Positions 1 through 33,786 of a stretch of DNA of 43,316 nt are shown piece by piece (the first letter of the stretch is position 1; the number at the start of each line of letters is the position of its first letter). Below the pieces are notes generated by a model that was not told the origin of the DNA, ran no database searches, and saw nothing but the letters and a program-made list of their open reading frames with translations. The position numbers were made by a program, and so were the translations under genes. This DNA is from a virus. The stretch spans positions 1 through 43,316 of the IMG/VR virus record IMGVR_UViG_3300047548_000539. One strand, written 5' to 3'.

Positions 1-19
1 CAAATCTCGTACTCAATCG
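1..19. repeat. Terminal direct repeat, copy 1 (contig overlap)
   Basis: The first 19 bases match the last 19 bases (43298-43316) with one difference, at base 6 (c here, a at 43303). A reading frame on the minus strand continues in frame from one copy into the other. This is what a circular or circularly permuted genome gives when it is assembled linearly. A short true terminal repeat is less likely, because the site lies inside a gene. Confidence 0.75.
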
Positions 20-128
20 GTACGCCTATCGTGACACGAACATAACTAATAAATTCTCGCCCCGTCACGGAATCCCCGCACCTATCGCACCAGTGTTGCG
101 GCACACTACCAGAATAATCCCTACCCAT
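1..128 (-). CDS. Cys-rich small protein, N-terminal part (gene crosses the window ends)
   Basis: The start is ATG at 128 behind a GGGGG motif and the frame is open to base 1. If the ends are joined at the 19-base overlap it continues in frame at 43314-43192 and gives about 77 residues. Cysteine pairs CDRC (near residue 14) and CCVPC (near residue 43) suggest a treble-clef or zinc-ribbon fold. Residue 41 reads Glu in this copy and Asp in the other. The function is unknown. It lies in the series of tiny leftward genes, 11 bases after the preceding stop codon. Confidence 0.7.
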   Translation of the reverse strand, partial: MGRDYSGSVPQHWCDRCGDSVTGREFISYVRVTIGVPIEYEI

Positions 129-139
129 AACCTTACCCC

Positions 140-295
140 CTACTCAAAACTAGCGACACGGGTAACATTCCCCGCCCGATATTCTGGCGTGACACTATCA
201 CACACGCCACACAACCAAACCTTACTATCCCCGTAACGCCTAGCAAACAAACCGCCACCCGTCACCCGCTTATCGCATTCAAAACATTCAAACAT
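140..295 (-). CDS. Zinc-ribbon-like microprotein, 51 aa
   Basis: The start at 295 is chosen because GGGGG lies 4 bases before the ATG. A longer upstream extension of the frame would cover the neighbouring gene and is discarded. Two CxxC pairs (CFEC near residue 4 and CGVC near residue 30) are spaced as in a zinc ribbon. The start overlaps the stop of the 288-509 gene by 8 bases, implying translational coupling. The function is unknown; it may be an RNA-, DNA- or protein-binding adaptor. Confidence 0.7.
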   Translation of the reverse strand: MFECFECDKRVTGGGLFARRYGDSKVWLCGVCDSVTPEYRAGNVTRVASFE

Positions 296-509
296 TATGC
301 CCCCAAGCGATAGTCTGATTAGCCGCAATAGCCGCCAAACAATCGTTGTAACCTTCACCCCGAACAATAGTTTCATAATCGCCAGTATCGCGGCGGAATC
401 GGTACGCGGCAAACAAATCATCATCCCCATAATATTCACCCGCCACAAACCAAACCGTGTCACCTATCATACTGATACTCTCAATAACAACCCCGTCAAA
501 TTGTTCCAT
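288..509 (-). CDS. Hypothetical protein, 73 aa
   Basis: This is an acidic small protein with several aromatic beta-strand-like stretches and no recognised motif. ATG at 509 overlaps the preceding TAA as TAATG and follows GGGGG at 6 bases. It is part of the coupled leftward series. The function is unknown. Confidence 0.7.
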   Translation of the reverse strand: MEQFDGVVIESISMIGDTVWFVAGEYYGDDDLFAAYRFRRDTGDYETIVRGEGYNDCLAAIAANQTIAWGHNV

Positions 510-649
510 TAGTTACCCCCTTCATTATCATCATCGTTAGGATATTCCAATTCCTGTTCCGCCATAGCCCGTTCCCGTTCCGCCATAGCCCGTTCAAACA
601 TTAAATTAAACAACGCCCTACCCTGTTGTTCGCTCATTTCCCATTCCAT
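509..649 (-). CDS. Hypothetical helical microprotein, 46 aa, with internal repeat
   Basis: The ATG at 649 lies 4 bases after GGGGG. The centre contains an in-tandem repeat of the heptapeptide ERAMAE(R/Q), encoded by a 21-base direct repeat near 553-594, and is predicted to be one charged helix. The C-terminus EGGN is encoded by the ribosome-binding site of the next gene. The stop TAA and next ATG overlap at 509. No family was recognised. Confidence 0.65.
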   Translation of the reverse strand: MEWEMSEQQGRALFNLMFERAMAERERAMAEQELEYPNDDDNEGGN

Positions 650-657
650 TATTCCCC

Positions 658-801
658 CTAATTATCCTTACCGTCACTCCACAAACCACAATCCCCGCAA
701 CGATAATCCCTAACAACACTACTCCAAACCAATTCATCACTATCACAAAACGCGCAACGATTAGTTACTGTTTCACAACAATCACAAACAACCGTATCCA
801 T
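658..801 (-). CDS. Six-plus-cysteine zinc-ribbon microprotein, 47 aa
   Basis: Translation from ATG at 801 (GGGGG upstream) gives a protein with CDCC, CAFC and CGDC clusters in 47 residues, enough to bind two metal ions. It is clearly related to the first half of the 42308-42583 product. The two share the pattern VVCxCC, TNRCxxC, SDEL.W and C.DCG.W. This is a paralogous pair within one phage. The function is unknown; a nucleic-acid- or protein-binding zinc module is the likely class. Confidence 0.7.
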   Translation of the reverse strand: MDTVVCDCCETVTNRCAFCDSDELVWSSVVRDYRCGDCGLWSDGKDN

Positions 802-996
802 TTATATCTCCCCCTTATCTACTCTGACGGGCAACATAAACTTATGCCCCCCGCAACCGTCACAATCCCCCGACACGCCCAAACCGTCACGGACAACAAA
901 CCTAATATCCGCCGCCGATTCAATACAACCGTAGCACCTAAACATAGTTACTGTTTCCCTAATCATAGTTTGATATTCGCTAACCGTCATACTCAT
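802..996 (-). CDS. Hypothetical CxxC protein, 64 aa
   Basis: The start at 996 overlaps the preceding stop as TAATG, with GGGGG 7 bases upstream. An N-terminal helix is followed by CYGC (near residue 21) and CDGCGG (near residue 45), a zinc-ribbon-like arrangement with a beta-rich middle. The next gene begins immediately after the TAA. No specific family was recognised. Confidence 0.7.
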   Translation of the reverse strand: MSMTVSEYQTMIRETVTMFRCYGCIESAADIRFVVRDGLGVSGDCDGCGGHKFMLPVRVDKGEI

Positions 997-1235
997 TACT
1001 GTTCCCCCTTCAATCCTTCACACAACAATTCAATCATCCCTAACCTAGTCTGCCGCAATTCTGGCAAACTTACCCCCGACAACGCGCCTTCACGGTAATC
1101 GTGTAGCAAACAATCAAACGCCGCCGCAATATCATCCGCCGCGTTAGAATCTCCCGCCCGCGCCGCCGCCACACAATCGGCAACACTATCCCATCTATCG
1201 GGCAAATAATATTCCGCCCATTCCGCGCCACTCAT
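996..1235 (-). CDS. Hypothetical alpha-helical protein, 79 aa
   Basis: This is a mostly helical acidic protein with an Ala-rich middle and no metal-binding pairs. ATG at 1235 sits 7 bases after GGGGG and overlaps the upstream stop by 4 bases (ATGA). Its own TAA overlaps the ATG of the 802-996 gene. The function is unknown. Confidence 0.7.
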   Translation of the reverse strand: MSGAEWAEYYLPDRWDSVADCVAAARAGDSNAADDIAAAFDCLLHDYREGALSGVSLPELRQTRLGMIELLCEGLKGEQ

Positions 1236-1423
1236 TCCATTCCCCCTTCCGATTCAAGATAATCGTCATAATCCGCCGCTGCGCAACGGTAAGCAACATA
1301 ATCACACTTGAACAGAATATCAGCGGGATACAGTGTCACGCCCCCAATACTGTAAGTGCCATAACAATCATTCAACATATCGTCAAACCTATCGTTCCGT
1401 TCACGGTTACTCAAATTGTCCAT
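1232..1423 (-). CDS. Hypothetical acidic protein, 63 aa
   Basis: ATG at 1423 is preferred over a GTG one codon upstream because it lies 6 bases from GGGGG and overlaps the preceding stop as TGATG. The protein is acidic and rich in Tyr and Asp, with three isolated cysteines. The C-terminal EGGME is encoded by the ribosome-binding site of the following gene. No family was recognised. Confidence 0.65.
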   Translation of the reverse strand: MDNLSNRERNDRFDDMLNDCYGTYSIGGVTLYPADILFKCDYVAYRCAAADYDDYLESEGGME

Positions 1424-1614
1424 CACAATCCCCCTTCAATCGTTGATTCCATACTGGCAACATAATCGGCACTAAACCCGCCCCGCACCCGTTCCACAAT
1501 CCATCCGCGCGGATAATCACTATCACAATAGTAATCCCCCCATCCGCCCGCAATCGTATCCATAGCGTACACGGTAGCCGCCGCGCCGCACCTAGCACAA
1601 ACCCGTTCACTCAT
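1423..1614 (-). CDS. Hypothetical CxxC protein, 63 aa
   Basis: The N-terminus carries CARCG (residues 6-10) and a further Cys near residue 30, a possible half zinc ribbon. The start at 1614 overlaps the upstream stop by 4 bases, with GGGGG 7 bases before. The C-terminal IEGGL is the translated ribosome-binding site of the next gene. The function is unknown. Confidence 0.65.
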   Translation of the reverse strand: MSERVCARCGAAATVYAMDTIAGGWGDYYCDSDYPRGWIVERVRGGFSADYVASMESTIEGGL

Positions 1615-1790
1615 TCCGTCACCCCCGTAATCACAACAGTATCCGCCATAATCTTATGCGCCACAATTCGCCGCCCGCTACGGTACTCAACAACCCATCC
1701 GTACCCGCCGCTAGTTTCCCCGACAATCACGCCCGTATCCCCGTACAAATTAGTAACCGTGTCACCCAATTTAGTTTGTTCCGTAATCAT
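1611..1790 (-). CDS. Hypothetical SH3-like beta protein, 59 aa
   Basis: The frame is complete from ATG at 1790 (GGGGG 9 bases upstream) to a TGA that overlaps the next ATG. The sequence alternates hydrophobic and polar residues with G-D-T and G-x-V-V turns, resembling a small KOW or SH3-like beta barrel. That resemblance is only an impression. Both ends couple to neighbours through ATGA overlaps. Confidence 0.65.
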   Translation of the reverse strand: MITEQTKLGDTVTNLYGDTGVIVGETSGGYGWVVEYRSGRRIVAHKIMADTVVITGVTE

Positions 1791-1936
1791 TCTTGCATTC
1801 CCCCTTCAAGAGAATCATTATTTACTGACACATACAACCTAACACACAACCTAACCATTCGCAACCATTCCGCCCCCATCGTAACCAAACCGTTATCAAA
1901 CCCGTAAGGAAACATAGCATAATCATCCACAAACAT
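1787..1936 (-). CDS. Hypothetical protein, 49 aa
   Basis: The frame is open from ATG at 1936 to a TGA overlapping the ATG at 1790. A GGGGG tract lies 12 bases before the start, farther than usual, so the start is less certain. The C-terminal EGGMQE comes from the ribosome-binding site of the following gene, as elsewhere in this series. No motif was recognised. Confidence 0.5.
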   Translation of the reverse strand: MFVDDYAMFPYGFDNGLVTMGAEWLRMVRLCVRLYVSVNNDSLEGGMQE

Positions 1937-1938
1937 TA

Positions 1939-2013
1939 TCACAAACCGCCCCCGAAACCGACAACCCGCGCGGCATAAACCCGCATAACAAAATTAACAA
2001 CCCGCCAAAACAC
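1939..2013 (-). CDS. Possible 24-aa basic peptide
   Basis: A GTG at 2013 overlaps a TAG (TAGTG), 9 bases after GGAGG, and reads 24 codons to a TGA just before the next ATG. The peptide is basic and hydrophobic. The only support is the continuous stop/start chaining seen in its neighbours. It may be untranslated spacer. Confidence 0.3.
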   Translation of the reverse strand: MFWRVVNFVMRVYAARVVGFGGGL

Positions 2014-2081
2014 TAGCCCCGCCCTCCAAACAAACAACCGTTGTTAAGTAGTGTTGTTATGTTGTAATAACTAATAATCAT
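2013..2081 (-). CDS. Possible 22-aa peptide in AT-rich island
   Basis: ATG at 2081 follows a run of seven G by 7 bases and reads 22 codons to TAG. The start codon lies in the loop of a perfect 7-bp hairpin (2072-2088). It could be a leader peptide or merely an accidental frame in an AT-rich regulatory stretch. Confidence 0.3.
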   Translation of the reverse strand: MIISYYNITTLLNNGCLFGGRG

Positions 2082-2088
2082 ATTATTA
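2033..2088. repeat. AT-rich island with two palindromes
   Basis: Two perfect inverted repeats lie in a short AT-rich stretch inside otherwise C/A-rich sequence. The first is AACAAC-C-GTTGTT at 2033-2045. The second is TAATAAT-CAT-ATTATTA at 2072-2088. They could be an operator, an mRNA hairpin or part of an unwinding element. Confidence 0.5.
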
Positions 2089-2094
2089 CCCCCC

Positions 2095-2238
2095 CTAATC
2101 CAGGACCGCCGCAACAACCGCCGCAAACCACACAATACCAACACAACCCGCCACACTCAAACAATCCACAACAACCCGCCCCCGCCGAGTAAGCGGCAAC
2201 CGTTCCCCCTTCACCGTAATCGTTCCGTACCCGTTCAC
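2095..2238 (-). CDS. Single-pass membrane microprotein, 47 aa
   Basis: A GTG at 2238 overlaps the preceding TGA (GTGA). The N-terminal half is basic and polar. Residues 28-46 are a continuous hydrophobic stretch of Val, Ala, Ile and Gly, predicted to span the membrane with a short C-terminal end. It is unlikely to be the main holin because it is far from the lysis genes. It could be an early host-membrane effector; the role is not known. Confidence 0.55.
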   Translation of the reverse strand: MNGYGTITVKGERLPLTRRGRVVVDCLSVAGCVGIVWFAAVVAAVLD

Positions 2239-2363
2239 GATACCTTACCCTTCACCTTATCCGCCGCCCGCCGTTCATCCCGCCGCTTCAAATCCGCAAC
2301 CTTCCGACCATACTCACGCAACCGATACAACGCCGCCCGATTCTCACTGTAACGCTTACCCAT
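2235..2363 (-). CDS. Highly basic microprotein, 42 aa
   Basis: This is an Arg/Lys-rich helical peptide (about 16 basic residues in 42), consistent with nucleic-acid or ribosome binding. The start ATG at 2363 overlaps the preceding TAA, and GGGGG lies just upstream. The stop TGA overlaps the GTG of the membrane microprotein. No family was recognised. Confidence 0.6.
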   Translation of the reverse strand: MGKRYSENRAALYRLREYGRKVADLKRRDERRAADKVKGKVS

Positions 2364-2488
2364 TACGCCCCCCGATTCTCAAACAACCCGCACAATCCAC
2401 ACGCCCGCAACGATTCCCCCGACACAATCCACAACACGGGGACACGGCAACGACACGCGGCAGACAACCTAACAACCCGACTAGTCAT
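2363..2488 (-). CDS. CxxC microprotein, 41 aa
   Basis: ATG at 2488 overlaps the upstream TAA. The protein has a CRC pair near residue 12 and a CGLC pair near residue 30, as in the other zinc-ribbon-like products here. It is coupled on both sides by TAATG overlaps. The function is unknown. Confidence 0.55.
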   Translation of the reverse strand: MTSRVVRLSAACRCRVPVLWIVSGESLRACGLCGLFENRGA

Positions 2489-2778
2489 TACTGCCCACCA
2501 TTCTCACGGTACTCACGAACATACGCGGGAACATTCCGCGCCGCAAATTCATACGCCGCTTGAATCGCGCGGATACGGTTGAACAATCCGCGCGTGTTGT
2601 CGGGTTCCGACAATTGGTGAACAATCGCCCCCGCCGCGTTGTAAACAACAACATAAGAGAGAGTCCACGCGATAGCCGTGCCGATAGTTTCGCCGTCGTT
2701 TAGTGCGCCGCATACACGCCCCGCGCGTGTGGCATTCTCACACGCCGCCGCAAATTGCCGTTTAGTGATTCGTTCCAT
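2488..2778 (-). CDS. Hypothetical helical protein, 96 aa
   Basis: This is one of the larger proteins of the left segment. It starts at ATG 2778 with GGGG about 6 bases upstream. Helices flank a central beta stretch, and there are no cysteine pairs. It begins after a 100-base non-coding structured stretch (2779-2882), so it may start a new translational unit. No family was recognised. Confidence 0.75.
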   Translation of the reverse strand: MERITKRQFAAACENATRAGRVCGALNDGETIGTAIAWTLSYVVVYNAAGAIVHQLSEPDNTRGLFNRIRAIQAAYEFAARNVPAYVREYRENGGQ

Positions 2779-2823
2779 TGTGTATCCCCTTACTCTGTAC
2801 CGTAACCCGTTGTCACGATATCG

Positions 2824-2872
2824 CCCCGCCCTACGGTGTCGAACCGTAGCCGCCCCCCAATCGGTGACGGGG
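2824..2872 (-). other. tRNA-like hairpin lacking D and anticodon arms
   Basis: Between two genes (2779-2882, about 100 bases without a credible frame) the minus strand has a 7-bp outer stem, CCCCGTC with GGCGGGG (one G-T pair). It encloses a 6-bp stem CTACGG/CCGTAG around the loop TTCGACA, which has the T-loop consensus TTCRANN. The 16 bases between the stems are too short for D and anticodon arms. It may be a tRNA-like element, a relic, or an attachment-site remnant. It is not callable as a tRNA. Confidence 0.4.
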
Positions 2873-2882
2873 AATCCCCTAC

Positions 2883-3050
2883 CTAATCCACAACCCGCTC
2901 AACAATCACAAACCATTCCGCCCAATCGCTACCGTGATAAATCACCGCCGCCGTAATCGCGCCCGCCCGTGTCGTGTGCCAAGCACCGCGCCACCGTTCC
3001 CCGTCATCCCCTACGCGGCGTGCCGCTATCGCGTACAGTGTCACGCCCAT
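2883..3050 (-). CDS. Hypothetical protein, 55 aa
   Basis: ATG at 3050 is chosen because it overlaps the previous stop (TGATG) and follows GGGGG by 4 bases. A longer frame to 3104 would run through the neighbouring gene. The product is beta-alpha with many aromatic residues and no cysteines. The function is unknown. Confidence 0.6.
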   Translation of the reverse strand: MGVTLYAIAARRVGDDGERWRGAWHTTRAGAITAAVIYHGSDWAEWFVIVERVVD

Positions 3051-3190
3051 CACTCCCCCTTCACTGTAAATTCTGTAATTGACCCATCGGCTAGGTAATC
3101 CCAAGCCGCCGCCATAACCGCCGCCATATGTTCGCGCGGCATTGTGTAGGTAATTCGCTTACCGTCGCGCGTGTAGATTATCGTGAACAT
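3050..3190 (-). CDS. Hypothetical protein, 46 aa
   Basis: The frame from ATG at 3190 to a TGA overlapping the next ATG encodes a beta hairpin followed by an Ala/Met-rich helix. It starts 3 bases upstream-strand from the end of the 3194-3463 gene. The ribosome-binding site is weak, so translation probably depends on coupling. No family was recognised. Confidence 0.55.
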   Translation of the reverse strand: MFTIIYTRDGKRITYTMPREHMAAVMAAAWDYLADGSITEFTVKGE

Positions 3191-3193
3191 TCC

Positions 3194-3463
3194 CTAACGC
3201 CCTTCGTTCTCGATTCGCGCGGCGCGGCAATCTAACCCGCCGCGTTCCGCTTCCGTGTGCCAATCACTGCCGCAGTAGTCGCACTCGAAATAATCCGCTT
3301 CGCGCATATAATCCACGGTGCGGGCGTGATAACCGTTCCGCGTAAGCGATTCGATTTCGTTGAGTACCGCTTCAAATGCGGCGGCGTTGTTGGCGTTGCG
3401 CGTTTGCGCGGCTAACGCTTCAAGTGTTAGTGCTAGTGTTTCGCGGCGTCGTTCCGTGTTCAC
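3194..3463 (-). CDS. First gene of the leftward arm, CxxC protein, 89 aa
   Basis: GTG at 3463 lies about 9 bases after AAGGAG, the only near-canonical ribosome-binding site in this end of the arm. The N-terminal 50 residues are helical and charged. CDYC near residue 60 and a later Cys give a partial zinc-knuckle pattern. It is the promoter-proximal gene, so it is expected to be expressed earliest. The function is unknown. Confidence 0.75.
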   Translation of the reverse strand: MNTERRRETLALTLEALAAQTRNANNAAAFEAVLNEIESLTRNGYHARTVDYMREADYFECDYCGSDWHTEAERGGLDCRAARIENEGR

Positions 3464-3503
3464 TGGTTCACTCTCCTTATGTTGTGTGATGTTGGCATAT
3501 TTA

Positions 3504-3512
3504 GTTATAACA
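3504..3512 (-). promoter_or_regulatory. Candidate leftward promoter (extended -10)
   Basis: The minus strand reads TG-T-TATAAC, which predicts a start of transcription near 3497 and a 33-34-base leader for the first leftward gene. There is no good -35 hexamer at 16-18 bases. It matches the extended -10 pattern repeated elsewhere, except for its last base. Confidence 0.4.
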
Positions 3513-3522
3513 ACAACCTAGC

Positions 3523-3687
3523 ACCGATACGCGGCGCACGCAACACAAAACGGGCAATATTTGATAACGAAATTGTTACACAAATACGCTTGACAATTGG
3601 CGCGGCATAGTGTAGGCGCGTGAACCGATACGCGGCGGCGGCGGAACATAGCACACACTTACGCGCGACACGCCGTAGTTTGATAAC
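3523..3687. repeat. Interleaved direct repeats (iteron- or operator-like)
   Basis: ACCGATACGCGGCG occurs exactly at 3523-3536 and 3624-3637. TTTGATAAC occurs at 3560-3568 and 3679-3687, each followed by related AACGAAA or GTAACGAAA words. The spacing between copies is 101 and 119 bases. Such repeats in a non-coding control region suggest binding sites for an initiator or regulator. Confidence 0.5.
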
Positions 3688-3925
3688 AATTTGGTAACGA
3701 AAAACGCGGCGCGAGAATGCCCTCTAACGCGCTAACGCGAGTAGGTTGGGGTGATTGTATGCCAGAGAATTACACGCGCTTACGCGGGCATATAGCGCGT
3801 ATCAGAGATTTCTGACATAACAACAAACGCGCGGCGATACTCAACGGCAATATTATACATAATATATTCATTTAGGCGCGTTACCGTTTCATAGGATACA
3901 CACAGCAAACACACAGGCGCGGCAA

Positions 3926-3941
3926 TCGAACAAATGTTCGA
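3926..3941. promoter_or_regulatory. SOS (LexA) box 1
   Basis: TCGAACAAATGTTCGA has perfect 7-base arms around AA. It fits the actinobacterial/Gram-positive LexA site TCGAAC-N4-GTTCGA. It is the first of three such boxes and the farthest from the terminase promoter. Confidence 0.8.
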
Positions 3942-3972
3942 CACACGGCGGCAGAATCGTCGCACCTATGTT

Positions 3973-3988
3973 CCGAACAAATGTTCGA
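3973..3988. promoter_or_regulatory. SOS (LexA) box 2
   Basis: CCGAACAAATGTTCGA differs from box 1 at the first base only. It is followed at once by a further half site, TTCGAAC (3985-3991... overlapping the right arm), so a second LexA dimer might load nearby. Centre-to-centre distance to box 1 is 47 bases. Confidence 0.8.
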
Positions 3989-4006
3989 ACAAACATCACG
4001 GATTAT

Positions 4007-4022
4007 TCGAACAAATGTTCGA
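4007..4022. promoter_or_regulatory. SOS (LexA) box 3
   Basis: TCGAACAAATGTTCGA is again a perfect palindrome with AA centre, and it extends one more base each way (4006-4023). Its centre is 34 bases from box 2 and about 70 bases upstream of the terminase -10 element. The host LexA repressor is the expected ligand. Confidence 0.8.
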
Positions 4023-4078
4023 AAGCGTGGCGTGGCACTATCGCATATTTTTTTCTATGGTTTTGTGTTTGTGGCCTC

Positions 4079-4087
4079 TGGTATGAT
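4079..4087 (+). promoter_or_regulatory. Late-arm promoter (extended -10) before terminase
   Basis: TG-G-TATGAT predicts transcription start near 4094, only about 11 bases before the GTG of the small terminase gene. No clear -35 element lies 17 bases upstream. The three SOS boxes lie 57-160 bases upstream and could modulate it. Confidence 0.55.
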
Positions 4088-4104
4088 TTGTGTGGAGGTG
4101 TGTT

Positions 4105-4611
4105 GTGTCTGATTTGGATTTTGTTGACCGTGTGTTGTTGCGGGAGTATGGTCGTAAGTCGCCTAAGGAACTTGAGGCGTTGACGGGTGTGCCTGCGGTT
4201 GAGGTGGCGCAACGGTTGGAGAGGTTGTTGGGGGAGAGGGATTTTTTGGGGGAGGATGCGGCGATTCGTGTGTTGTTGCATCGGTTGGATTTGATGGTGG
4301 CTGAGGTTGAGTCGCGGTTGTCTGGTGTGTCTGATAGGAATGTGGGTGCTGTGGTGAATGCTGCGGCTGGTGCGATTGGTCGGCAGTTGCGGGTGTTGCA
4401 GGATTTGAGGGATAGGTCGCGGGTGGATTTGGAGAGGGTGCAGGCTGTGTATGCGGCTGAGTTGGTGCGGATTGTTGAGTTGTCGTTTGAGCGTTTGTTG
4501 GGGCGGTTGGAGGAGAGGTTTCCTGAGGTGTCGGCTGATGAGTTGCGGTCTGAGTTTGAGTCTGTGATTTTGGCGGTGGCTGCTGAGGTGGATGAGGGTT
4601 CTGGTGTTTAG
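4105..4611 (+). CDS. terS: Terminase small subunit (probable)
   Basis: This is a 168-residue helical protein encoded directly upstream of the large terminase gene, the usual place for the DNA-recognition subunit that starts genome packaging. Residues 10-35 look like a helix-turn-helix (KSPKELEALTG..AVEVAQRL). The rest is long amphipathic helices suited to ring oligomerisation. GTG at 4105 lies 6 bases after GGAGG. The assignment is mainly from position and architecture, because small terminases diverge strongly. Confidence 0.7.
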   Translation: MSDLDFVDRVLLREYGRKSPKELEALTGVPAVEVAQRLERLLGERDFLGEDAAIRVLLHRLDLMVAEVESRLSGVSDRNVGAVVNAAAGAIGRQLRVLQDLRDRSRVDLERVQAVYAAELVRIVELSFERLLGRLEERFPEVSADELRSEFESVILAVAAEVDEGSGV

Positions 4612-6157
4612 TGGGGTTGCGGCGCTTGCGGTATCGGAAATGCAGGAGAAGTCTAGGGCGCGGGTGTATCGGACTGACCCTGAGGCGTGGATGGCGGATG
4701 TGTTGGGGGTTCGGTTGTGGTCGAAGCAGTCGGAGATTGCTGAGGCGTTTGTGGTGAATCGTCGTTCGGCGGTGAAGTCTGCGAATGGTTGTGGGAAGTC
4801 TGCGTTGGGTGCGGCGTTGGTGTCGTGGTGGTGTTCGGTGTTTCCTGTTGAGGAGTCGTTGGCGATTATTTCTGCACCTACTTTGTCGCAGATTGAGAAG
4901 GTGATTTTTGCTTATTTGAAGAATAATCATGCGTCGGCTAGGGTGTTGGGTTCTCCTTTGCGGGGTGAGTTGTCGGAGGAGTTGACGTGGAAGGTTGCGA
5001 ATCCTGTGACGGGGAAGAATGATTTTTTGGCTTTTGGTAAGCGCCCTGCGGATAAGGATATTGTGTCGTCGTTTCAGGGTACGAGGAAGTTGCGTACTTT
5101 TGTTTTGTTGGATGAGGCGGGTGGTGTGCCGAGGGAGTTGTTTACTGCGGCTGAGGCGGTGACGACTGGTGAGGAGTCGCGCCTGTTGGCGATTGGTAAT
5201 CCTGACCATCGGGGTACAGAGTTTTATAATATTTTTACGCGACCTGAGTTGATGGATGAGTTTTGGTTGGGTACTATTTCGGCGTTTGATTTGCCAACGT
5301 TTACGGGGGAGAGGGTGTATGGTGATGTGCGTCAGGAGGAGTTGTTTCAGAAGTCGTTGACGAGTCGTGACTGGGTTGAGCATAAGAGGCGTGTGTGGGG
5401 TGAGGGTGACGCTAGGTGGTTGTCGAAGGTGTTGGGTGAGTTTCCTGCTGAAACGGATAACACGTTTTTTGGGCAGACGGCGTTGGACCGTGGTGTGGAT
5501 ACGGTGGTTGTGGATGATGCGGCGGTGCGCCCAATTCTGGGTGTGGATGTGGCAAGGTTTGGTGAGGATGAGTCTGTTGTTTATATGAATCGTGGTGGGC
5601 GGGTTCGTTTGGTTGATTCGTGGGGGAAGGTTGATACGGTGGTGTCTGCTAGGCGTGTTCACCAGTTTGCTCAGTCGGTGGATGCTGCGGAGGTGCGGGT
5701 GGATGCGTCGGGTATTGGTGGGGCTGTGTTTGATATGTTGGATTCGTTGGCGGAGTTTGATGATAAACGGTATGTGTTGATTGGTGTTGATGGTGCGGCT
5801 AGGTCACCTGACCCTGCACAGTGGGCGAATGCTCGTGCGTATAATCACGACTCGTTGCGGAAGCAGTTGTTGGATGGGAAGTTGGATATTGATTTTGAGG
5901 ATACGGAGTTGCGTGACCAGTTACTGATGGTGACGTATCGGTTTAACAATCGGGGTGCTGTGCAGATTACTCCGAAGGATGAGTTGCGTGGTGTGATGGG
6001 TGGGTCGCCTGACAGGTTGGATGCGTGTATTTATGCGTGTACGGATTTGTCGTGGTCGTTGCCTGTTGAGGGTGGGTTGTCTGCTGGGGATAGGGTTATG
6101 TTTGACCCTGCTGATGTGTTGGGTGTTGCGGTGAATGATTATGGTATGCCGTGGTAA
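4592..6157 (+). CDS. terL: Terminase large subunit
   Basis: This is the packaging ATPase and nuclease. A Walker A-like SANGCGKS lies at residues 63-70 and a Walker B LLDEAGG at about 172-178. The RNase H-fold nuclease carries acidic residues in GVDVARFG (D319), VRVDASG (D371) and RLDACIYA (D477). The length of 521 residues is normal. The ATG at 4592 overlaps the small-subunit gene by 20 bases. GTG at 4604 (with GAGGG upstream) and ATG at 4640 are alternative starts, since the first 16 residues are not typical. Leucine is almost always TTG, unlike the capsid gene. Confidence 0.95.
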   Translation: MRVLVFSGVAALAVSEMQEKSRARVYRTDPEAWMADVLGVRLWSKQSEIAEAFVVNRRSAVKSANGCGKSALGAALVSWWCSVFPVEESLAIISAPTLSQIEKVIFAYLKNNHASARVLGSPLRGELSEELTWKVANPVTGKNDFLAFGKRPADKDIVSSFQGTRKLRTFVLLDEAGGVPRELFTAAEAVTTGEESRLLAIGNPDHRGTEFYNIFTRPELMDEFWLGTISAFDLPTFTGERVYGDVRQEELFQKSLTSRDWVEHKRRVWGEGDARWLSKVLGEFPAETDNTFFGQTALDRGVDTVVVDDAAVRPILGVDVARFGEDESVVYMNRGGRVRLVDSWGKVDTVVSARRVHQFAQSVDAAEVRVDASGIGGAVFDMLDSLAEFDDKRYVLIGVDGAARSPDPAQWANARAYNHDSLRKQLLDGKLDIDFEDTELRDQLLMVTYRFNNRGAVQITPKDELRGVMGGSPDRLDACIYACTDLSWSLPVEGGLSAGDRVMFDPADVLGVAVNDYGMPW

Positions 6158-6160
6158 AGT
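6152..6160 (+). promoter_or_regulatory. Leaderless promoter (extended -10) before portal
   Basis: TG-G-TAAAGT ends 7 bases before the ATG at 6167, so transcription is predicted to begin at the first base of the start codon. The AGAGG just before the ATG is only 1 base away, too near to act as a ribosome-binding site, which fits leaderless translation. Confidence 0.5.
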
Positions 6161-6166
6161 AGAGGT

Positions 6167-7675
6167 ATGGCTAAAGAGAACCCTGTAGAGGTAGAGCAGA
6201 AACGTCAGATTGAGGCGCTTGAAGGTGCGTTGACGGAGATTAGAAACCGTCACGAAACCACTGCGTTTGAGTTGCAGGAACGTATGGTGGAACTTGACCG
6301 TATTATGGGTGGTCAGGAAAACTGGATTCCGTTGTTGTCGTATGGGGATGAAGGTCCTTCGATTGAACAGTTGGTGACACGGGCGAAGCAGATTCGTGTT
6401 GCGGTGACGTTGAATCCGCATGTGAAGCGTGGTGCAAAGTTGCGTTCGTCTTATGTGTGGTCTGACCAGATTGATTATTCTGGTATTCCTGGTATGGGTG
6501 AACCTGCTGGTCGTGGGCAGGCGAATGTTGGTGCGCGTGTTGATGACCCGATTAATCAACGGTATGTGTTTAGTGCGTTGGCGCGTGAGGAACGTGAAAT
6601 GTCGCTTTACACTGACGGTGGTTTTATTCTTATTGGTGATGAAACAGATAAAACGTTGCGCCCTATGCCGATTACACAGATTAGTGGAATGTACACGAAC
6701 GATGAAGACCCGTCTGAGGTGTGGGCGTATCGTCGCCTGTGGTACACGGAGGGTGGTTTGAAACCGAATGTGGAATGGATTTTTACTGACTTGTTTAAAT
6801 CGAAGACGACATCGGAGATTGTTTATAACGGTGTCACTGAACCTGTGAATCGTCGCAAAACAATTATTGATGGTTGGGTGAACACGCAACCTGGTTGGGC
6901 GTTGGGTTTCCCTGATGCTGGTTGTATTGTGGAGTGGGCAAGGATTTATTCTGAGTTCATCAAGTCGGGTAAGTTGATGACGGATGCGATGGCTCGTATT
7001 TGGGCTGTGGCGAAAGCGCAGTCGTCAACGGGTGCTGCGGCTGTTGCAACTAAACTTGGTGGCGGTACAGGGTTTGGTAATGTTGCGGTTGGTAATGAAC
7101 TTGCACCGTTGGCTACTGCTGGTAAGGCTTATGATTTTGATGCGGGTCGCGCACTGATTTCGATTGTGGCGACTGGTATTGAGGTGTCGGTTATTCATTT
7201 GACTTCTGACCCTGGCGCGTCTGGTTCGTCGTATGGTTCGGCTGCGACTTTGGATTTGCCGACACGGTTGGCGGTTGAGGCTCGCCGCCGTTGGCATGAA
7301 CAGTATGAGGAGAGGGTGTTGCGTTGGTTGGGTGCGCGTAATCCTCGCGCAAAGTTCCCGCCGATTGTGGATGGTGCAGAGTTGTATCGTAAGACGCAGG
7401 CTGTTGTGTTGAAGTGGCAGACTGGTCTTTACACTCCTGAGCAGGTGAAGAATGAGTTGCAGTTGTTGATGGGTGACCCGATGCCGTCTGATATTCCTGA
7501 TGGTGTGTTGATTCCCAACAACGAGTATTCGGCGCAACGTGCAGACATTGATATGGATGTTGCGGCAATGGATGATTCAATGCCTACTGTTGCGTCACCT
7601 GACCAGGGGCAAGACAACGGCACTGGTTCGTTGGATGCTTTGGGTATGGACTTGAGGGATGACACTATCTCGTAA
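6167..7675 (+). CDS. Portal protein
   Basis: This is a 502-residue portal that forms the dodecameric DNA gate at one capsid vertex and docks the terminase. Evidence is its length, its place between terL and the protease gene, an N-terminal helical segment, and the stretch around residues 60-110 (VTLNPHVKRGAKLRSSYVW) typical of actinophage portals. The C-terminal 40 residues are acidic and probably disordered. It starts at ATG 6167, 9 bases after the terL stop. Confidence 0.88.
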   Translation: MAKENPVEVEQKRQIEALEGALTEIRNRHETTAFELQERMVELDRIMGGQENWIPLLSYGDEGPSIEQLVTRAKQIRVAVTLNPHVKRGAKLRSSYVWSDQIDYSGIPGMGEPAGRGQANVGARVDDPINQRYVFSALAREEREMSLYTDGGFILIGDETDKTLRPMPITQISGMYTNDEDPSEVWAYRRLWYTEGGLKPNVEWIFTDLFKSKTTSEIVYNGVTEPVNRRKTIIDGWVNTQPGWALGFPDAGCIVEWARIYSEFIKSGKLMTDAMARIWAVAKAQSSTGAAAVATKLGGGTGFGNVAVGNELAPLATAGKAYDFDAGRALISIVATGIEVSVIHLTSDPGASGSSYGSAATLDLPTRLAVEARRRWHEQYEERVLRWLGARNPRAKFPPIVDGAELYRKTQAVVLKWQTGLYTPEQVKNELQLLMGDPMPSDIPDGVLIPNNEYSAQRADIDMDVAAMDDSMPTVASPDQGQDNGTGSLDALGMDLRDDTIS

Positions 7676-7691
7676 ATGTTATCCCATATTG

Positions 7692-7700
7692 TGATAACAT
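7692..7700 (+). promoter_or_regulatory. Leaderless promoter (extended -10) before protease
   Basis: TG-A-TAACAT ends 7 bases before position 7708, the A of the ATG. No Shine-Dalgarno sequence is present. Transcription and translation of the protease gene probably start at the same base. Confidence 0.5.
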
Positions 7701-7707
7701 TATGTAG

Positions 7708-8619
7708 ATGAAACTTTTAAATGAAGCGTCTAGTTCTACGCTCACGCGACACGGTAAGCGTTGGCGTGGTGTCCTTGCTGTACCTGGTCAAGGTTCTTCA
7801 GGTTTTTATTCTGAAGAAGTGTTGCGCGAGTTTGGTCCTGCCGCGTTAGCGCCTGGTGCTAAAGCGTTCATTGACCATGACACGCAACGTTCACCGAAAG
7901 ACATGATTGGTGTTTACCCTGACGGTGCTGTGTGGGATGACGAACTTGGTGCGTTGGTTGGTGAGTTGGAAGTGTTCCCTCACTGGCAAGAGTTTGTTGA
8001 AGCCGTTGGACCTCACGCTGGTTTGTCTATTTACATGATGGGTGAAACAGATGCTGACGGTAATGTGACTGCACTCATCCCTGACCGTATGAACGGGGTT
8101 GACCTTGTTTCATACCCTGGTTTGGTTGGGTCTGGGTTGGTTGAAAAATTGTACGAGTCGGCTAAGGCTGCACTTGCTACTGAGGGTTCTGACATGGATG
8201 TTCAGGATGCCAATACCGTTAATACGGAAGGAATGGATATGGAAAAGGAAGAACTCCTTACCATCCTTGAAGGGTTTAAGGCTGAAATCACTGCTGCAGT
8301 GATTGAGTCGGTTAAGCCTGTTGAGGAAGAAGTTTCTGCCGAAGAAGAAACCACAGAACTCGCTGACATGGCGGCGGTTGCTGAGGTTGCTGTTGAGGCG
8401 GGTATTCCTGCTGAACTTCGTGCGGAGATTTACGAAGCCGCTAAGAGCATGACGCACGATGAGGCGCTTGCACTTGTTGAGGCTCGTAAGAACACGGTGG
8501 ATGCAATCCGCAAAGCCGTGTCTGAAAACGCAAAGGTTGAGGCTGCCGCCCCTGCTGGTCGCGTTGTTGAAGCGGGAACGGCTCGCTTTGACCTCACTCA
8601 GATTGCAAAGGTTAAGTAA
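7708..8619 (+). CDS. Capsid maturation protease fused to scaffold
   Basis: Residues 1-150 resemble actinophage prohead proteases, with GSSGFYSEEVLREFGP, FIDHD, LSIYM and VDLVSYPG segments. These are candidates for the Ser/His catalytic core (H57 region, S107). Residues 178-303 are acidic, Ala/Glu-rich and helical, as expected of a scaffold that guides capsid assembly and is then digested. The family logic is that of HK97-type heads. A nested start at 8239 could release the scaffold alone. It lies between portal and decoration genes. Confidence 0.85.
   Translation: MKLLNEASSSTLTRHGKRWRGVLAVPGQGSSGFYSEEVLREFGPAALAPGAKAFIDHDTQRSPKDMIGVYPDGAVWDDELGALVGELEVFPHWQEFVEAVGPHAGLSIYMMGETDADGNVTALIPDRMNGVDLVSYPGLVGSGLVEKLYESAKAALATEGSDMDVQDANTVNTEGMDMEKEELLTILEGFKAEITAAVIESVKPVEEEVSAEEETTELADMAAVAEVAVEAGIPAELRAEIYEAAKSMTHDEALALVEARKNTVDAIRKAVSENAKVEAAAPAGRVVEAGTARFDLTQIAKVK
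8239..8619 (+). CDS. Nested in-frame start for separate scaffold, 126 aa
   Basis: Inside the protease gene, GGAAGGA (8226-8232) lies exactly 6 bases before the in-frame ATG at 8239, at the boundary between the protease and scaffold parts. The host gene itself has no ribosome-binding site. Internal initiation would make many free scaffold copies per protease, as in phage lambda C/Nu3. This is inferred, not proven. Confidence 0.5.
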   Translation: MEKEELLTILEGFKAEITAAVIESVKPVEEEVSAEEETTELADMAAVAEVAVEAGIPAELRAEIYEAAKSMTHDEALALVEARKNTVDAIRKAVSENAKVEAAAPAGRVVEAGTARFDLTQIAKVK

Positions 8620-8996
8620 TGGCTCTTAATGAAATTTACCGCGATGGCGAGTCCATCTCGTACAAGGTCAACTCTGCAGTTGAGTCGGGAATGTTTGTTG
8701 TTCTCGGTGGAACTGCTGGTGCGACTGGCGCTGCCGCCACAGGTGTCTGGGGTGTTGCAGAAACTGACGCTAAACTTGGTGAAGATGGCAACTACTACGC
8801 CACCATCCGCCACGTTGGTGTTTTCACTGGCACAACATCGTCTGCTGTTGCCCCTGGTACAGCACTGTACCTTGCTTCGGCTGCAACATACGGTACAGCC
8901 CTGACCACAACGGCAACCTCCAACTACTTTGTTGGATACGCTATCAACACAAAGGGTGCTGTCGCAGGCGAAGCCCTTGTACGAGTCAACAACTAA
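8619..8996 (+). CDS. Head decoration / stabilisation protein (DUF2190-like)
   Basis: This 125-residue beta-rich protein has alternating Gly/Ala/Val and the G-V-F-T-G and A-P-G-T-A-L-Y-L-A pattern of DUF2190-type capsid-associated proteins. These bind the outside of the shell as trimers or at quasi-threefold positions. The ATG overlaps the preceding TAA, with AAGG 7 bases upstream. The gene directly precedes the major capsid gene, as usual. Codon use shifts here towards C-ending codons. Confidence 0.75.
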   Translation: MALNEIYRDGESISYKVNSAVESGMFVVLGGTAGATGAAATGVWGVAETDAKLGEDGNYYATIRHVGVFTGTTSSAVAPGTALYLASAATYGTALTTTATSNYFVGYAINTKGAVAGEALVRVNN

Positions 8997-9005
8997 GGAA
9001 TGATG

Positions 9006-10148
9006 ATGACTGACCGTAAACTTATGATTGAAAACGCGATTGAGAACATCAACCGCACCGCTAACGAACGTCAGGTTGAGGCGGGTCGCCTTTACCTCGG
9101 CGCTCTGCAGGGCGACCAGAAGGCTAAGCATGCCCTCATTGAAGGTATCTCCACCTCGGACATTCCTTCGCTTCTCGCCCCCGCTATCAACGTTCAGTTC
9201 CTTGCGAACTACGCTGACATGCCCGTTGTTTGGAATCAAATCGCTGAAGATGTTATTGACGCGCCCCGATTCGGAACAGTTGAGTTCGGTGGATTCGACT
9301 TTGATGTTGAGTCGCTGAAGGGTGTTCACGACGGTGACGAGTACGTTGGTGCTGGTCTTCCTGGTGTTGGCGAGTACGGCGAGTACCCTGCTCTTGGTTT
9401 CACAACCGAGCAGTTGGATGCAGACCTTCGCAAGAACGGTGTTCGCCTCCGCATTTCGTGGGAAGCGATTATGAACAGCGGAAACGTTGACATTATTGGT
9501 CGCGCCACTTCTGCGTTCGCCCGTTACGCTGCTGAGCAGGAAGACATTGCGCTTGCTAAGCAGTTCGTTGCAACCGACGGAACAATCAACGCTTCGTTCG
9601 TTGAGGCTAACGACGGTGTTGACCCGAACCCCGCACTTACGCTGGAGTCGCTTGAGAAGGTTATTGCTCAGGCTGCCCGCATTGATGTTGGAACAGGTCG
9701 CCACGTCAACGCTCGCGGATACCGCCTCGTCACGACTGGTGCGCTTGCTCAGACTGCTCGTCGCATCCTGTCCACCACTGAGGTTCGCCGCACCGAAGGT
9801 ACGGATGTTCTCATCCAGTCGCCTGCTCTTGGTAACGTTTCGTTCACCGAGTTCTGGGCGCTTGACGCAGTTGGTTCGGCTACAACTGCTGGTGCAACGG
9901 ATGACTACTGGTTCATTGTTCCGCAGGGAACTTCGCGCCCCGCGTTTGCTGAGGTCTTCCTCGCAGGCTACCGCACCCCGCTTATCACCATCAAGGACAG
10001 TGGACAGTTCACCCTCGCTGGTGGCGCTGTGCCGTCGCGTGAAGGTTCGTTTGAGTCGGATGACATTGAGGTTCGTGGTCGCCACGTTGTTGGCGCAGCC
10101 GCGATTGCCCCTCAGATTGTTGTCGCCTCTGACGGTACTGGTGCGTAA
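9006..10148 (+). CDS. Major capsid protein
   Basis: The protein of about 380 residues has the expected size for an HK97-fold major capsid protein and lies in the expected place. It has an N-terminal helical arm (residues 1-60), an extended beta loop with Asp/Gly-rich segments (EFGGFDFDVESLKG), a long spine helix near residues 150-190, and a beta-rich C-terminus. Three ATG codons occur in tandem (9000, 9003, 9006). AAGGA at 8995-8999 is best spaced (6 bases) from the third. C-ending codons (CTC, CGC, ATC, ACC) mark it as highly expressed. A terminator follows. Confidence 0.9.
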   Translation: MTDRKLMIENAIENINRTANERQVEAGRLYLGALQGDQKAKHALIEGISTSDIPSLLAPAINVQFLANYADMPVVWNQIAEDVIDAPRFGTVEFGGFDFDVESLKGVHDGDEYVGAGLPGVGEYGEYPALGFTTEQLDADLRKNGVRLRISWEAIMNSGNVDIIGRATSAFARYAAEQEDIALAKQFVATDGTINASFVEANDGVDPNPALTLESLEKVIAQAARIDVGTGRHVNARGYRLVTTGALAQTARRILSTTEVRRTEGTDVLIQSPALGNVSFTEFWALDAVGSATTAGATDDYWFIVPQGTSRPAFAEVFLAGYRTPLITIKDSGQFTLAGGAVPSREGSFESDDIEVRGRHVVGAAAIAPQIVVASDGTGA

Positions 10149-10173
10149 TAACTAAGACGCTACCTTAGCGATT

Positions 10174-10202
10174 AATCCCCGTCAGCAATGGCGGGGATTT
10201 TT
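10174..10202 (+). terminator. Rho-independent terminator after major capsid gene
   Basis: AATCCCCG (10174-10181) pairs with CGGGGATT (10192-10199) across a 10-base loop and is followed by a T run (10198-10202). A smaller hairpin, CGCTA-CCT-TAGCG (10158-10170), precedes it. It would cap the abundant capsid mRNA and limit transcription into the connector genes. Confidence 0.85.
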
Positions 10203-10215
10203 CGTGTATCATTGT

Positions 10216-10321
10216 TGTTAGGATAACGTTTCACTCCCCCCGTCAGTTATCCTAAGCGGTTACCTCCTACCGCATGGTGTGGGGTTGAGGTGCTTTGCCC
10301 CTTTCTCACCTCCCCCACACC
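10216..10321 (+). promoter_or_regulatory. Structured intergenic island after the capsid terminator
   Basis: The gap 10149-10345 holds no gene. After the terminator, TG-T-TAGGAT (10216-10224) fits the extended -10 pattern and lies in the left arm of a 10-bp inverted repeat, TTAGGATAAC (10218-10227) with GTTATCCTAA (10246-10255). A second long hairpin follows, GGTGTGGGG-TT-GAGGTG (10276-10292) with CACCTC-CCCCACACC (10307-10321). This could be an operator plus attenuator, or a small structured RNA. Confidence 0.5.
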
Positions 10322-10332
10322 AGTTCATACGA

Positions 10333-10338
10333 TACAAT
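10333..10338 (+). promoter_or_regulatory. Leaderless promoter before connector genes
   Basis: TACAAT is a near-consensus -10 hexamer placed 7 bases before position 10346, the A of the ATG. The extended TG is lacking (CGA precedes). No ribosome-binding site is seen, so leaderless translation is predicted. Confidence 0.45.
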
Positions 10339-10345
10339 GGATAGT

Positions 10346-10774
10346 ATGAGTAACTCTGGTGTAGCCCCTTATGACCCGTCAACACTTGTTGGTAAGGTTC
10401 GTGTTGTTACTGGTGACGTGAATTATGGTACACCTGTTGGTGGGTTTGCCGAATATGAAATGTTCTCTGATGATGAGATTGAGGCGTTTCTTGTAGAATC
10501 TGAAGATAGTGTTTTGCGGGCTGCCGCATACGGTTATTTGGCTTTGTCTGGTCGTGCATCGTTGCAGGCTAAGACGGTTAAAGATTATGACTTGTCTGTT
10601 GATTTGAAGGCTGTTGCGGCTGAGTTGCGTAAGCAGGCTGATGATTTGTTTAAACGCGCTGACGAGAAGGATGGTCGTGATGGTGTGTCCGATGTGTTTG
10701 AGTGGGCAGCAACTGGTCGCCCTTACACTGTTTCCGAACTGGCAGAGCCTGAGAATTGGTTGTGGAATCTGTAG
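10346..10774 (+). CDS. Head-tail connector / adaptor
   Basis: This 142-residue protein (from ATG 10346) has an N-terminal acidic segment and then helices with A-A-A-Y-G-Y-L-A-L and a long Lys/Asp helix. That pattern is common in gp6-like adaptors, which sit under the portal as a 12-mer ring. It is the first gene after the capsid, where adaptors are normally found. An in-frame ATG at 10337 is possible but does not fit the predicted transcription start. Confidence 0.65.
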   Translation: MSNSGVAPYDPSTLVGKVRVVTGDVNYGTPVGGFAEYEMFSDDEIEAFLVESEDSVLRAAAYGYLALSGRASLQAKTVKDYDLSVDLKAVAAELRKQADDLFKRADEKDGRDGVSDVFEWAATGRPYTVSELAEPENWLWNL

Positions 10775-11211
10775 TGAAAACTTTTACGAGTTGGGAAGAA
10801 CAGATAGCGTCGGTCAGTTCACTGTCCGAGTTTCAGAATGCGACGATTGTAATCACTGACCCGTCACAGTTGACGAAGACTTACGATTATGACAGCAACA
10901 CTTACACTGTTAGTGGTGATGGTGTTGTGTATTCTGGGCAGGCGCGTGTGCAACCTCAACGTGCCGCTGCTGATGAACAGTTTATGGTTGGTGACCCGTC
11001 ATCGTCTAAACGGATTTTGGTGCAGATTCCGTCAACTGAACTTGATGTTATCAAGCGTGGGTTTCAGGTTCAGGTGACTGATGGTGGGCGTAATCCTGCG
11101 TTGGCTGATTTTTTGTTTACTGTGGTTGCTGATGTTAATTCATCGCATATGGCTTCGCATACTTTTGAGTGTGCTGTGGATGTGGAACAGAATCCGAACT
11201 GGGGTAACTGA
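10774..11211 (+). CDS. Head-tail stopper / head closure protein
   Basis: This is a 145-residue beta-rich protein with a centre (GDGVVYSGQARVQP...) typical of the stopper group that caps the connector and docks the tail. GTG at 10774 overlaps the preceding TAG (TAGTG). An earlier TTG would overlap more and is not preferred. It lies between adaptor and HK97 gp10-like genes, the standard order. Confidence 0.65.
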   Translation: MKTFTSWEEQIASVSSLSEFQNATIVITDPSQLTKTYDYDSNTYTVSGDGVVYSGQARVQPQRAAADEQFMVGDPSSSKRILVQIPSTELDVIKRGFQVQVTDGGRNPALADFLFTVVADVNSSHMASHTFECAVDVEQNPNWGN

Positions 11212-11666
11212 TGCCGTCACAAAAGTTTAATGTTGCGGCGTTTAGCAACTGGGCTAACCGTACACCTGATGAGGTTTCTTCCACCGCGCAGACTATTGTT
11301 ACCAACACTATTCAGGAGTCTGCGTTTCTTATGAGGGAAACTATTATGACTACGGGTACGAATAAGGATTGGGGTAAGTCGTGGCCTTCACGGGCGCAGG
11401 GTCGTAAGTCTTCTTCTGGTCCTGCCCGTTTTGATACTGGCGAGATGCGTGATTCTGTTGATTCGCAAATCATTCGCTCTAGCCGCCGCATTGTTTCTGG
11501 CGAGTTTGGTTGGTTGCGAAACCAGCAAGACTATTTTATTTATCAAGATAAAGGGTTTACCCATTTTGGTGGGGCTGTGATTCCTGCGATGAATGCGTTG
11601 CGTGACGCTTTCACTTACGCGGTCACAACTATTGATTCTGAGTTGAAGAAGGCGTTTAGAAAATGA
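11211..11666 (+). CDS. HK97 gp10-like neck / tail-completion protein
   Basis: This 151-residue protein contains WPSRAQGRKSSSGPARFDTGEMRDSV and, later, a F-I-Y-Q-D-x-G-F-x-H segment with a terminal PAMNALRDAF helix. That is the usual order of features in gp10-like neck proteins that join head and tail. ATG overlaps the stopper stop codon (TGATG), and ATGA overlaps the next gene. Confidence 0.75.
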   Translation: MPSQKFNVAAFSNWANRTPDEVSSTAQTIVTNTIQESAFLMRETIMTTGTNKDWGKSWPSRAQGRKSSSGPARFDTGEMRDSVDSQIIRSSRRIVSGEFGWLRNQQDYFIYQDKGFTHFGGAVIPAMNALRDAFTYAVTTIDSELKKAFRK

Positions 11667-12094
11667 TTAGTATTGAGTCTATCCGCACCGACATTCTCGG
11701 CTATCTTGAAACAGAAGTTTCGTTGGATGTGTACCGTGGCGGTGTTCCTGAACTATCAAACTTGCAATACGAGAACGGTATTTTGAAACCGTATGCAGTA
11801 ATCAACTTTGGTGACATTATGAAAGTTGGCAACGGTTCGTTCACTGGTGCGCGTAGTGACGAATACATGCAAACAATACAAATTTACTGTGTCGCTAAAG
11901 AAGTTGACATTGCTGAGGGTTGGCAGATTCGCATGATGGATGCGTTGCTCGGTTACCGACCTGCATATGCTGGTGAAATTTACAAGCGACCTGGTGCAGG
12001 AACTTTTGTGGTGGTAAATGACAGTGGCGGTGTGGAAGCGTTCATTTCAACAACAGCGTTTGGTTGTAATGTGCAACTTCTAGATTTGCCTTAA
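11663..12094 (+). CDS. Tail terminator protein
   Basis: This is a 143-residue alpha/beta protein. The size, the start Ile-x-x-I-R-x-D-I-L-G-Y-L, and the position between the gp10-like gene and the tail-tube genes match tail terminators, which cap the tail tube and set the joining surface. The 4-base ATGA overlap couples it to the upstream gene. Direct sequence similarity was not tested. Confidence 0.6.
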   Translation: MISIESIRTDILGYLETEVSLDVYRGGVPELSNLQYENGILKPYAVINFGDIMKVGNGSFTGARSDEYMQTIQIYCVAKEVDIAEGWQIRMMDALLGYRPAYAGEIYKRPGAGTFVVVNDSGGVEAFISTTAFGCNVQLLDLP

Positions 12095-33712: not shown

Positions 33713-33713
33713 G

Positions 33714-33786
33714 AGCCACCTGTCAGAATCGAACTGACGACATTCTGTTTACAAGACAGACACTCTACCAACTGAGTTAAGGCGGC
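33714..33786 (-). tRNA. tRNA-Thr (anticodon UGU)
   Basis: The 73-base sequence folds into a full cloverleaf. It has a 7-bp acceptor stem GCCGCCT/AGGTGGC with one G-T pair, a D arm ACTC/GAGT, an anticodon stem TCTGT/ACAGA around CTTGTAA (anticodon TGT), a 5-base variable loop, and a T arm GTCAG-TTCGATT-CTGAC. CCA is not encoded. It reads ACA, a codon frequent in the fibre and tail-tip genes. Confidence 0.93.

Follow-up and report, generated by a model that had tools for sequence, protein, structure and literature searches.

A conserved array of LexA-type operators ahead of the packaging genes in a probable actinophage lineage with no visible repressor

The window (the whole stretch of DNA analysed here, an IMG/VR virus record of 43,316 bases) is divided into two arms by a gap at positions 3464–4104, with a leftward ORF starting at 3463 and the rightward TerS gene starting at approximately 4105. 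The rightward arm runs in order through TerS, TerL, portal, protease, cement-like protein, capsid and tail genes to an M23 endolysin and an SbcD-like exonuclease. The leftward arm extends from 3463 down past the record start and continues from the record end, and carries genes for a beta-clamp-like protein, helicase, WhiB, Erf, exonuclease, SSB, primase-polymerase, tRNA-Thr and DNA methylase. The genes on which the argument draws are these:

3194–3463, minus strand: first gene of the leftward (replication/early-like) arm, encoding a small Cys-containing protein; conserved in close relatives
4105–4611, plus strand: TerS-like first gene of the rightward operon, assigned by its position before TerL; GTG start at ~4105 (ORF tool: 4090), with a Shine-Dalgarno sequence, GGAGGTG, at 4094–4100
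4592–6157, plus strand: terminase large subunit (TerL); phrog_2, 6.3e-29
6167–10148, plus strand: portal, head maturation protease, cement-like protein and capsid, in the same rightward operon
33713–33786, minus strand: tRNA-Thr (TGT), between the primase-polymerase and SSB genes
36195–36512, minus strand: WhiB-like regulator; supports an actinobacterial host

The ends of the window (1–19 and 43298–43316) are alike over 19 bases with one mismatch (CAAATCTCGTACTCAATCG / CAAATATCGTACTCAATCG), suggesting a complete or nearly complete genome, and the record of a close relative, G001, has an exact end overlap of 127 bp; both records are probably complete or nearly so. As no near DNA match to window positions 1–12000 was found among deposited phages, conservation was assessed in IMG/VR relatives. 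The host is inferred to be an actinobacterium, because the genome encodes WhiB and its TerL resembles those of Clavibacter, Arthrobacter and Microbacterium phages. Similarity of the tRNA-Thr was no guide to the host (best 80–84%, in two different MAGs), and the search for TerL homologues gave one distant match and none close in 300 genomes from the family of MAG G006 and 201 from that of G007, the latter set having no positive control.

A Pfam scan of the 75 window ORFs gave no match to an integrase, serine recombinase, CI-type, S24 or LexA-type repressor, LexA DNA-binding domain, ParA, ParB or Rep, and the PHROGs matches shown belonged to replication, packaging, tail, lysis and methylase families. 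Searches in all six frames for PF00589 and PF01381 returned 0 matches in this genome (G000), in the close relatives G001 and G002 and in four distant relatives, and were positive in 14/14 control genomes. Within the families known to these resources, the original prediction of a phage with no visible integrase or repressor was thus borne out: neither the integrase and HTH repressor of a classical temperate actinophage (Pfam/PHROGs-known families) nor the partition or plasmid replication-control genes of a phage-plasmid (Pfam, 75 ORFs) were found.

Between the two arms lies a control region with the following elements, the boxes and the palindrome being given no strand:

3564–3579: second operator-like palindrome, imperfect, ATAACGAAATTGTTAc, 10–11 bp upstream of TTGACA (3590–3595); perfect forms in relatives
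3926–3941: LexA-type box 1, TCGAACAAATGTTCGA; an extra copy relative to close relatives
3967–3972, plus strand: TATGTT, -10-like hexamer adjoining box 2, a putative promoter element; similar adjoining layout at many host dnaE2/recA promoters
3973–3988: LexA-type box 2, CCGAACAAATGTTCGA; left half of a conserved 33–34-bp pair, equivalent to G001:40961 and G002:34836
4001–4006, plus strand: GATTAT, -10-like hexamer adjoining box 3, likewise putative; the TerS leader would be ~92 nt
4007–4022: LexA-type box 3, TCGAACAAATGTTCGA; right half of the conserved pair and closest to TerS, equivalent to G001:40994 and G002:34869
4033–4055, plus strand: GTGGCACTATCGCATATTTTTTT block, possibly a leader or UP-like element, between the LexA pair and TerS; invariant in the three close relatives

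Matched against the operator form TCGAAC-N4-GTTCGA, a 16-bp palindrome, the window holds two perfect copies and one 15/16 copy. The core CGAACN4GTTCG occurs at no further site in the whole 43,316-base record, and a reversed control pattern gave 0 matches in the same 43.3 kb. Under a dinucleotide model of the window, 0.085 perfect sites are expected per 43.3 kb, and 0/200 simulated windows contained three sites inside 100 bp. The positions originally predicted for the cluster proved exact, and a chance origin of the array was rejected on these figures.

The boxes are almost certainly LexA operators. They match the actinobacterial LexA motif perfectly, that of Streptomyces being tCGAAC-N4-GNNCGa (PMC9380542). 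When each bacterial or archaeal species, represented by a single genome, was searched for the exact phage 16-mer, at least 116 loci were recovered and, among the matches listed, 30/116 had a dnaE2, recA or lexA homologue no more than 1.5 kb downstream of the 16-mer. Profile checks of genes flanked by the 16-mer placed three in the DnaE/error-prone polymerase family (error-prone polymerase in the top two) and identified one as RecA. Actinobacterial MAG loci L250, L251 and L252 carry in their lexA promoters an operator, TAGAACAAATGTTCGA, that shares 15/16 bases with the phage box, AAAT spacer included. The Streptomyces motif, together with the presence of the same 16-mer at dnaE2, recA and lexA promoters, lends firm backing to the operator identity first proposed for these sites.

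Two close relatives, G001 and G002, with TerL identities of 85% and 81%, carry two boxes each at a 33-bp spacing in the corresponding intergenic gap (CGAACAAACGTTCG and CGAACATATGTTCA in G001; CGAACATATGTACG and CGAACAAACGTTCG in G002), and in their 41 kb no other site lies within one mismatch of the core. Their N4 spacers are altered (AAAC, ATAT) and vary by copy and by genome, at least 9/10 half-site bases are retained, and in each relative one of the two boxes departs from the core at a single base. The conservation that had been set as a check on the original prediction, in relatives with the same gene order, therefore holds for two of the boxes. Box 2 and box 3 of the window, 34 bp apart, could be matched to the relatives' pair via the intervening shared sequence AAACATCAC(A/G)GATT, by which alignment the boxes are of unequal age, the pair being kept by close relatives and the third copy (box 1) being peculiar to the window genome. 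A search with an invariant 21-mer recovered the G001 and G002 contigs alone, as did a search for relatives based on the primase.

LexA boxes were also found in six independent distant lineages (L019, L020=L107, L023, L276, L283 and L288; TerL 38–49%). In 6/6 the boxes lie 2.3–2.6 kb upstream of terL, three of these lineages (L019, L020=L107 and L023; TerL 38–41%) having been found via the 16-mer itself, a route that is biased for the presence of boxes and unbiased for their location. A divergent gap precedes the operon leading to TerS/TerL in 5/6 box-bearing lineages, L283 fitting less clearly, and L288 has a pair of boxes 30 bp apart. To judge by sequence, LexA-box control is dispensable in the wider family, since boxes were present in just 3/~24 TerL relatives with 40–52% identity and at least ~2.6 kb of upstream sequence (L276, L283 and L288), and the isolate phages CN1A, CMP1, Amavida and Cassita, which have a different layout with no same divergent arrangement, showed no perfect-core site in the stretches read.

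Several further features of these and other contigs were recorded. In L019, L020, L023, L276 and L288 the leftward arm starts with a protein beginning MCGIGGFSLS or MCSIAGFSLS, by eye similar to class II glutamine amidotransferases, and in most of them the rightward arm starts with an amidoligase-like protein with an EIE motif, again by eye. In L276 a small rightward ORF (MFDTQTLIDALVFYAFGVTAYLIISRTK) has its ATG within the box at 3571–3586 and a Shine-Dalgarno sequence ahead of it. L006, a 63% relative, has an intein-like insert in TerL after the Walker A region (~480–1540), comparable to the annotated TerL intein of Clavibacter phage CN1A. Among viral contigs recovered with the 16-mer, a second perfect CGAACN4GTTCG lies 26–72 bp away in L012, L026, L037, L045, L046, L055, L063, L076, L086, L094, L099 and L101 (three in L101), so that phages may often carry arrays of LexA boxes.

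As to which arm the array would serve, spacing favours the rightward one. In the window, box 3 is 83 bp from TerS and box 1 is 463 bp from the leftward gene; in five other lineages the boxes are roughly 60–400 bp from the first rightward gene and ~600–1000 bp from the leftward gene. Promoter-like elements are consistent with this orientation. At host SOS loci, a TAT adjoins the box on the gene strand in 13/30 cases and on the opposite strand in 3/30 (counted by eye), and a rightward-strand TAT adjoins window box 3 (GGATTAT/TCGAAC) and both L288 boxes (CCTAT/TCGAAC and GTTAT/TCGAAC); the window has no box-adjoining TAT or -10-like hexamer on the leftward strand. No clean -35 was found for the box-adjoining hexamers, and a scan for consensus promoters scored nothing near the boxes above the chance level. 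Another -10-like hexamer, TATGAT (4082–4087), is downstream of box 3, where LexA would not cover it, and a candidate rightward promoter (TTGACA at 3590–3595, spacer 17, TAGGCG, the latter being TAATAT in G002) lies ~300 bp upstream of the boxes. The rightward TerS/TerL operon is thus the likely target of the array. Of the two targets offered by the original prediction, a late switch or the divergent early promoter, the link with the late operon gains support from distant relatives, and the early promoter is disfavoured by boxes that lie nearer the rightward operon wherever the gap is readable. The plasmid-like or pseudolysogenic persistence and the sensing of replication stress that it also proposed are hypothetical.

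The second palindrome, with consensus ATAAC(A/G)A(A/T)AT(C/T)GTTAT, recurs in these control regions (L005 ~9088 and ~9206, L246 ~3785, L276 3470, L019 2965, L435 8930 and L424 8204), and in L435, G001, G002 and the window it is ~10–13 bp upstream of a rightward-strand TTGACA. The motif is AT-rich and its matches across IMG/VR are mostly chance; just those near TerL relatives were used. A regulator or activator encoded by the phage probably binds there. A candidate for such a phage regulator is the 179-aa product of ORF 39135–39674 (minus strand), in which an HTH-like stretch, VRIAYAMGVKKATLKRAIGSKDHNTLQNI, is nearly invariant in three close relatives. This ORF had no Pfam or PHROG match, and its AlphaFold model (mean pLDDT 51) was unusable.

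From the observed sites, their identity with SOS operators, their conservation and their position, we infer that LexA would bind the array, repress the rightward operon and make it inducible by the SOS response. The model we favour, and consider reasonably probable, is that host LexA represses the packaging/structural operon and that RecA-triggered LexA cleavage releases TerS, TerL, portal, protease, capsid and the genes onward. Intact host LexA on the boxes would keep the rightward operon repressed or throttled, with dimers at boxes 2 and 3 either covering the box-adjoining -10-like hexamers or blocking transcription started upstream; were the start at the TTGACA candidate at 3590, LexA would act as a roadblock. 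Single-stranded DNA, arising from host damage or from phage replication or recombination, would activate RecA, active RecA would promote LexA self-cleavage, and the virion genes would be released. Since the replication arm is apparently not under LexA, the simplest outcomes would be delayed or damage-boosted virion production, rather than full lysogeny.

Other explanations for the array itself fare poorly. That the sites are functionless, through chance or as relics, is barely credible: boxes are indeed missing from most distant TerL relatives, but the low expectation and the lack of any simulated triplet stand against chance, and in relatives the half-sites stay while the spacers change. It is also highly improbable that the boxes bind a phage-encoded regulator and resemble LexA boxes only incidentally. 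Phages frequently have operators of their own, and the HTH-like stretch noted by eye in ORF 39135–39674 might supply the protein; however, the identity with host SOS operators is exact and extends to the AAAT spacer, Pfam gives no LexA-like or repressor protein, the fold predicted for 39135–39674 is of low confidence, and the second palindrome of this control region would make a more plausible site for such a regulator. That the array governs the early, leftward arm, or both arms, in place of the rightward operon would be easier to accommodate, given that the gap is common to both arms and that regulation from 463 bp upstream is not impossible, but we regard it as unlikely, because the first rightward gene is nearer to the boxes in every lineage with a readable gap and the -10-like hexamers of the window adjoin the boxes on the rightward strand only.

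The consequences of LexA control for lifestyle can be read in three further ways. The phage might be a temperate phage-plasmid for which host LexA is the sole lysogeny repressor, as in the Bacillus thuringiensis tectivirus GIL01, the genome being kept extrachromosomal with its late operon off until induced by damage. The conservation of LexA boxes where no integrase, HTH_3 or S24-type repressor was found would suit such a state, and GIL01 offers the precedent of an extrachromosomal prophage under host LexA at its early and late promoters (PMC6182141). We nevertheless think this rather doubtful: partition and plasmid replication-control genes had no Pfam match, and with boxes near the late operon only, LexA alone would leave the replication genes on; the lack of a close TerL homologue in the 300 and 201 sampled bacterial genomes counts little either way. 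The array may instead time the late operon of a phage that is strictly lytic: LexA would delay it until replication ssDNA activates RecA, and lysogeny would play no part, a reading to which we give a fairly low probability. It accords with boxes placed ahead of packaging and structural genes, with the phage-encoded Erf, exonuclease, SSB and SbcD-like protein, which could shape single-stranded DNA, and with the failure to find lysogeny genes; deferral of lysis by a host regulator has a precedent in CtrA (PMC9437464). Against it, SOS induction by infection in the host is an assumption of the model, and a phage activator may also be needed, as GIL01 shows. Deferred lysis comparable to that of CtrA phages would be a third possibility. 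In its boldest form, which we judge improbable, host LexA cleavage would be the early-to-late clock of a strictly lytic tailed actinophage lineage, a damage sensor replacing both repressor and late activator, with the operon freed once infection makes RecA-coated ssDNA.

To our knowledge, a phage that lacks its own repressor and leaves its virion genes under the direct gate of host LexA has been described in detail once, in a small Bacillus tectivirus. In coliphage 186 (tum), N15 and CTXphi, LexA sites lie at antirepressor or co-repressor genes, and cleavage of host LexA feeds the lytic switch. LexA thus acts there via an antirepressor or together with a phage repressor, whereas in the window the boxes stand before packaging genes and no repressor is visible. 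The closest parallel, and the precedent for the favoured mechanism, is GIL01, whose promoters P1 and P3 are associated with dinBox1/1b and dinBox2/3 (PMC4551915, PMC6182141). In GIL01, host LexA occupies the early promoter as well as two boxes at the late promoter P3, and damage alone is insufficient for induction, a phage activator also being required (PMC6182141). Both phages have host LexA boxes of the CGAAC-N4-GTTCG class in control regions, the promoter being putative in the window, and GIL01 combines a late capsid/lysis promoter, P3, with two LexA sites and no chromosomal integration (PMC4551915, PMC6182141). In the window, likewise, the boxes lie nearest the late genes, with a presumptive promoter, and no CI-type repressor or integrase was found among Pfam/PHROGs families. 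GIL01 differs in being a 15-kb linear tectivirus with terminal proteins, LexA at the early promoter too, gp7, and gp6 (a LexA homologue), whereas the window phage is tailed, has a presumed actinobacterial host, carries boxes near the rightward operon only and yielded no LexA homologue: a check for gp6-like proteins gave no S24 or LexA DNA-binding match in 75 ORFs, and a small protein like gp7 is not recognisable by sequence.

Two other systems share part of the arrangement. Prophage genes vnz_21525 to vnz_21550 of Streptomyces venezuelae have actinobacterial LexA sites upstream and are strongly induced by mitomycin C (PMC9380542), but they form a predicted cluster whose LexA sites are tabulated in the publication as single and imperfect; no array, repressor-free phage or conservation is shown there. 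In alphaproteobacterial CtrA phages, sites for a host regulator are concentrated in intergenic regions, and timing of lysis by host state has been proposed (PMC9437464), although CtrA reports the cell cycle and LexA DNA damage, and hosts and gene sets are different. A literature search of partial coverage found no description of LexA boxes in this kind of actinophage.

The array thus comprises real, conserved and functional-looking LexA operators, pointing to direct control of late genes by host LexA in tailed actinophages of a lineage in which no repressor is visible, and suggests that the phage holds back virion production until the host's DNA-damage alarm, or steps it up in response. If so, genomes scored as virulent because they have no integrase and no repressor may still answer host DNA damage, for example from sunlight; lifestyle prediction from metagenomes would be affected, and LexA-box arrays would provide a searchable marker.
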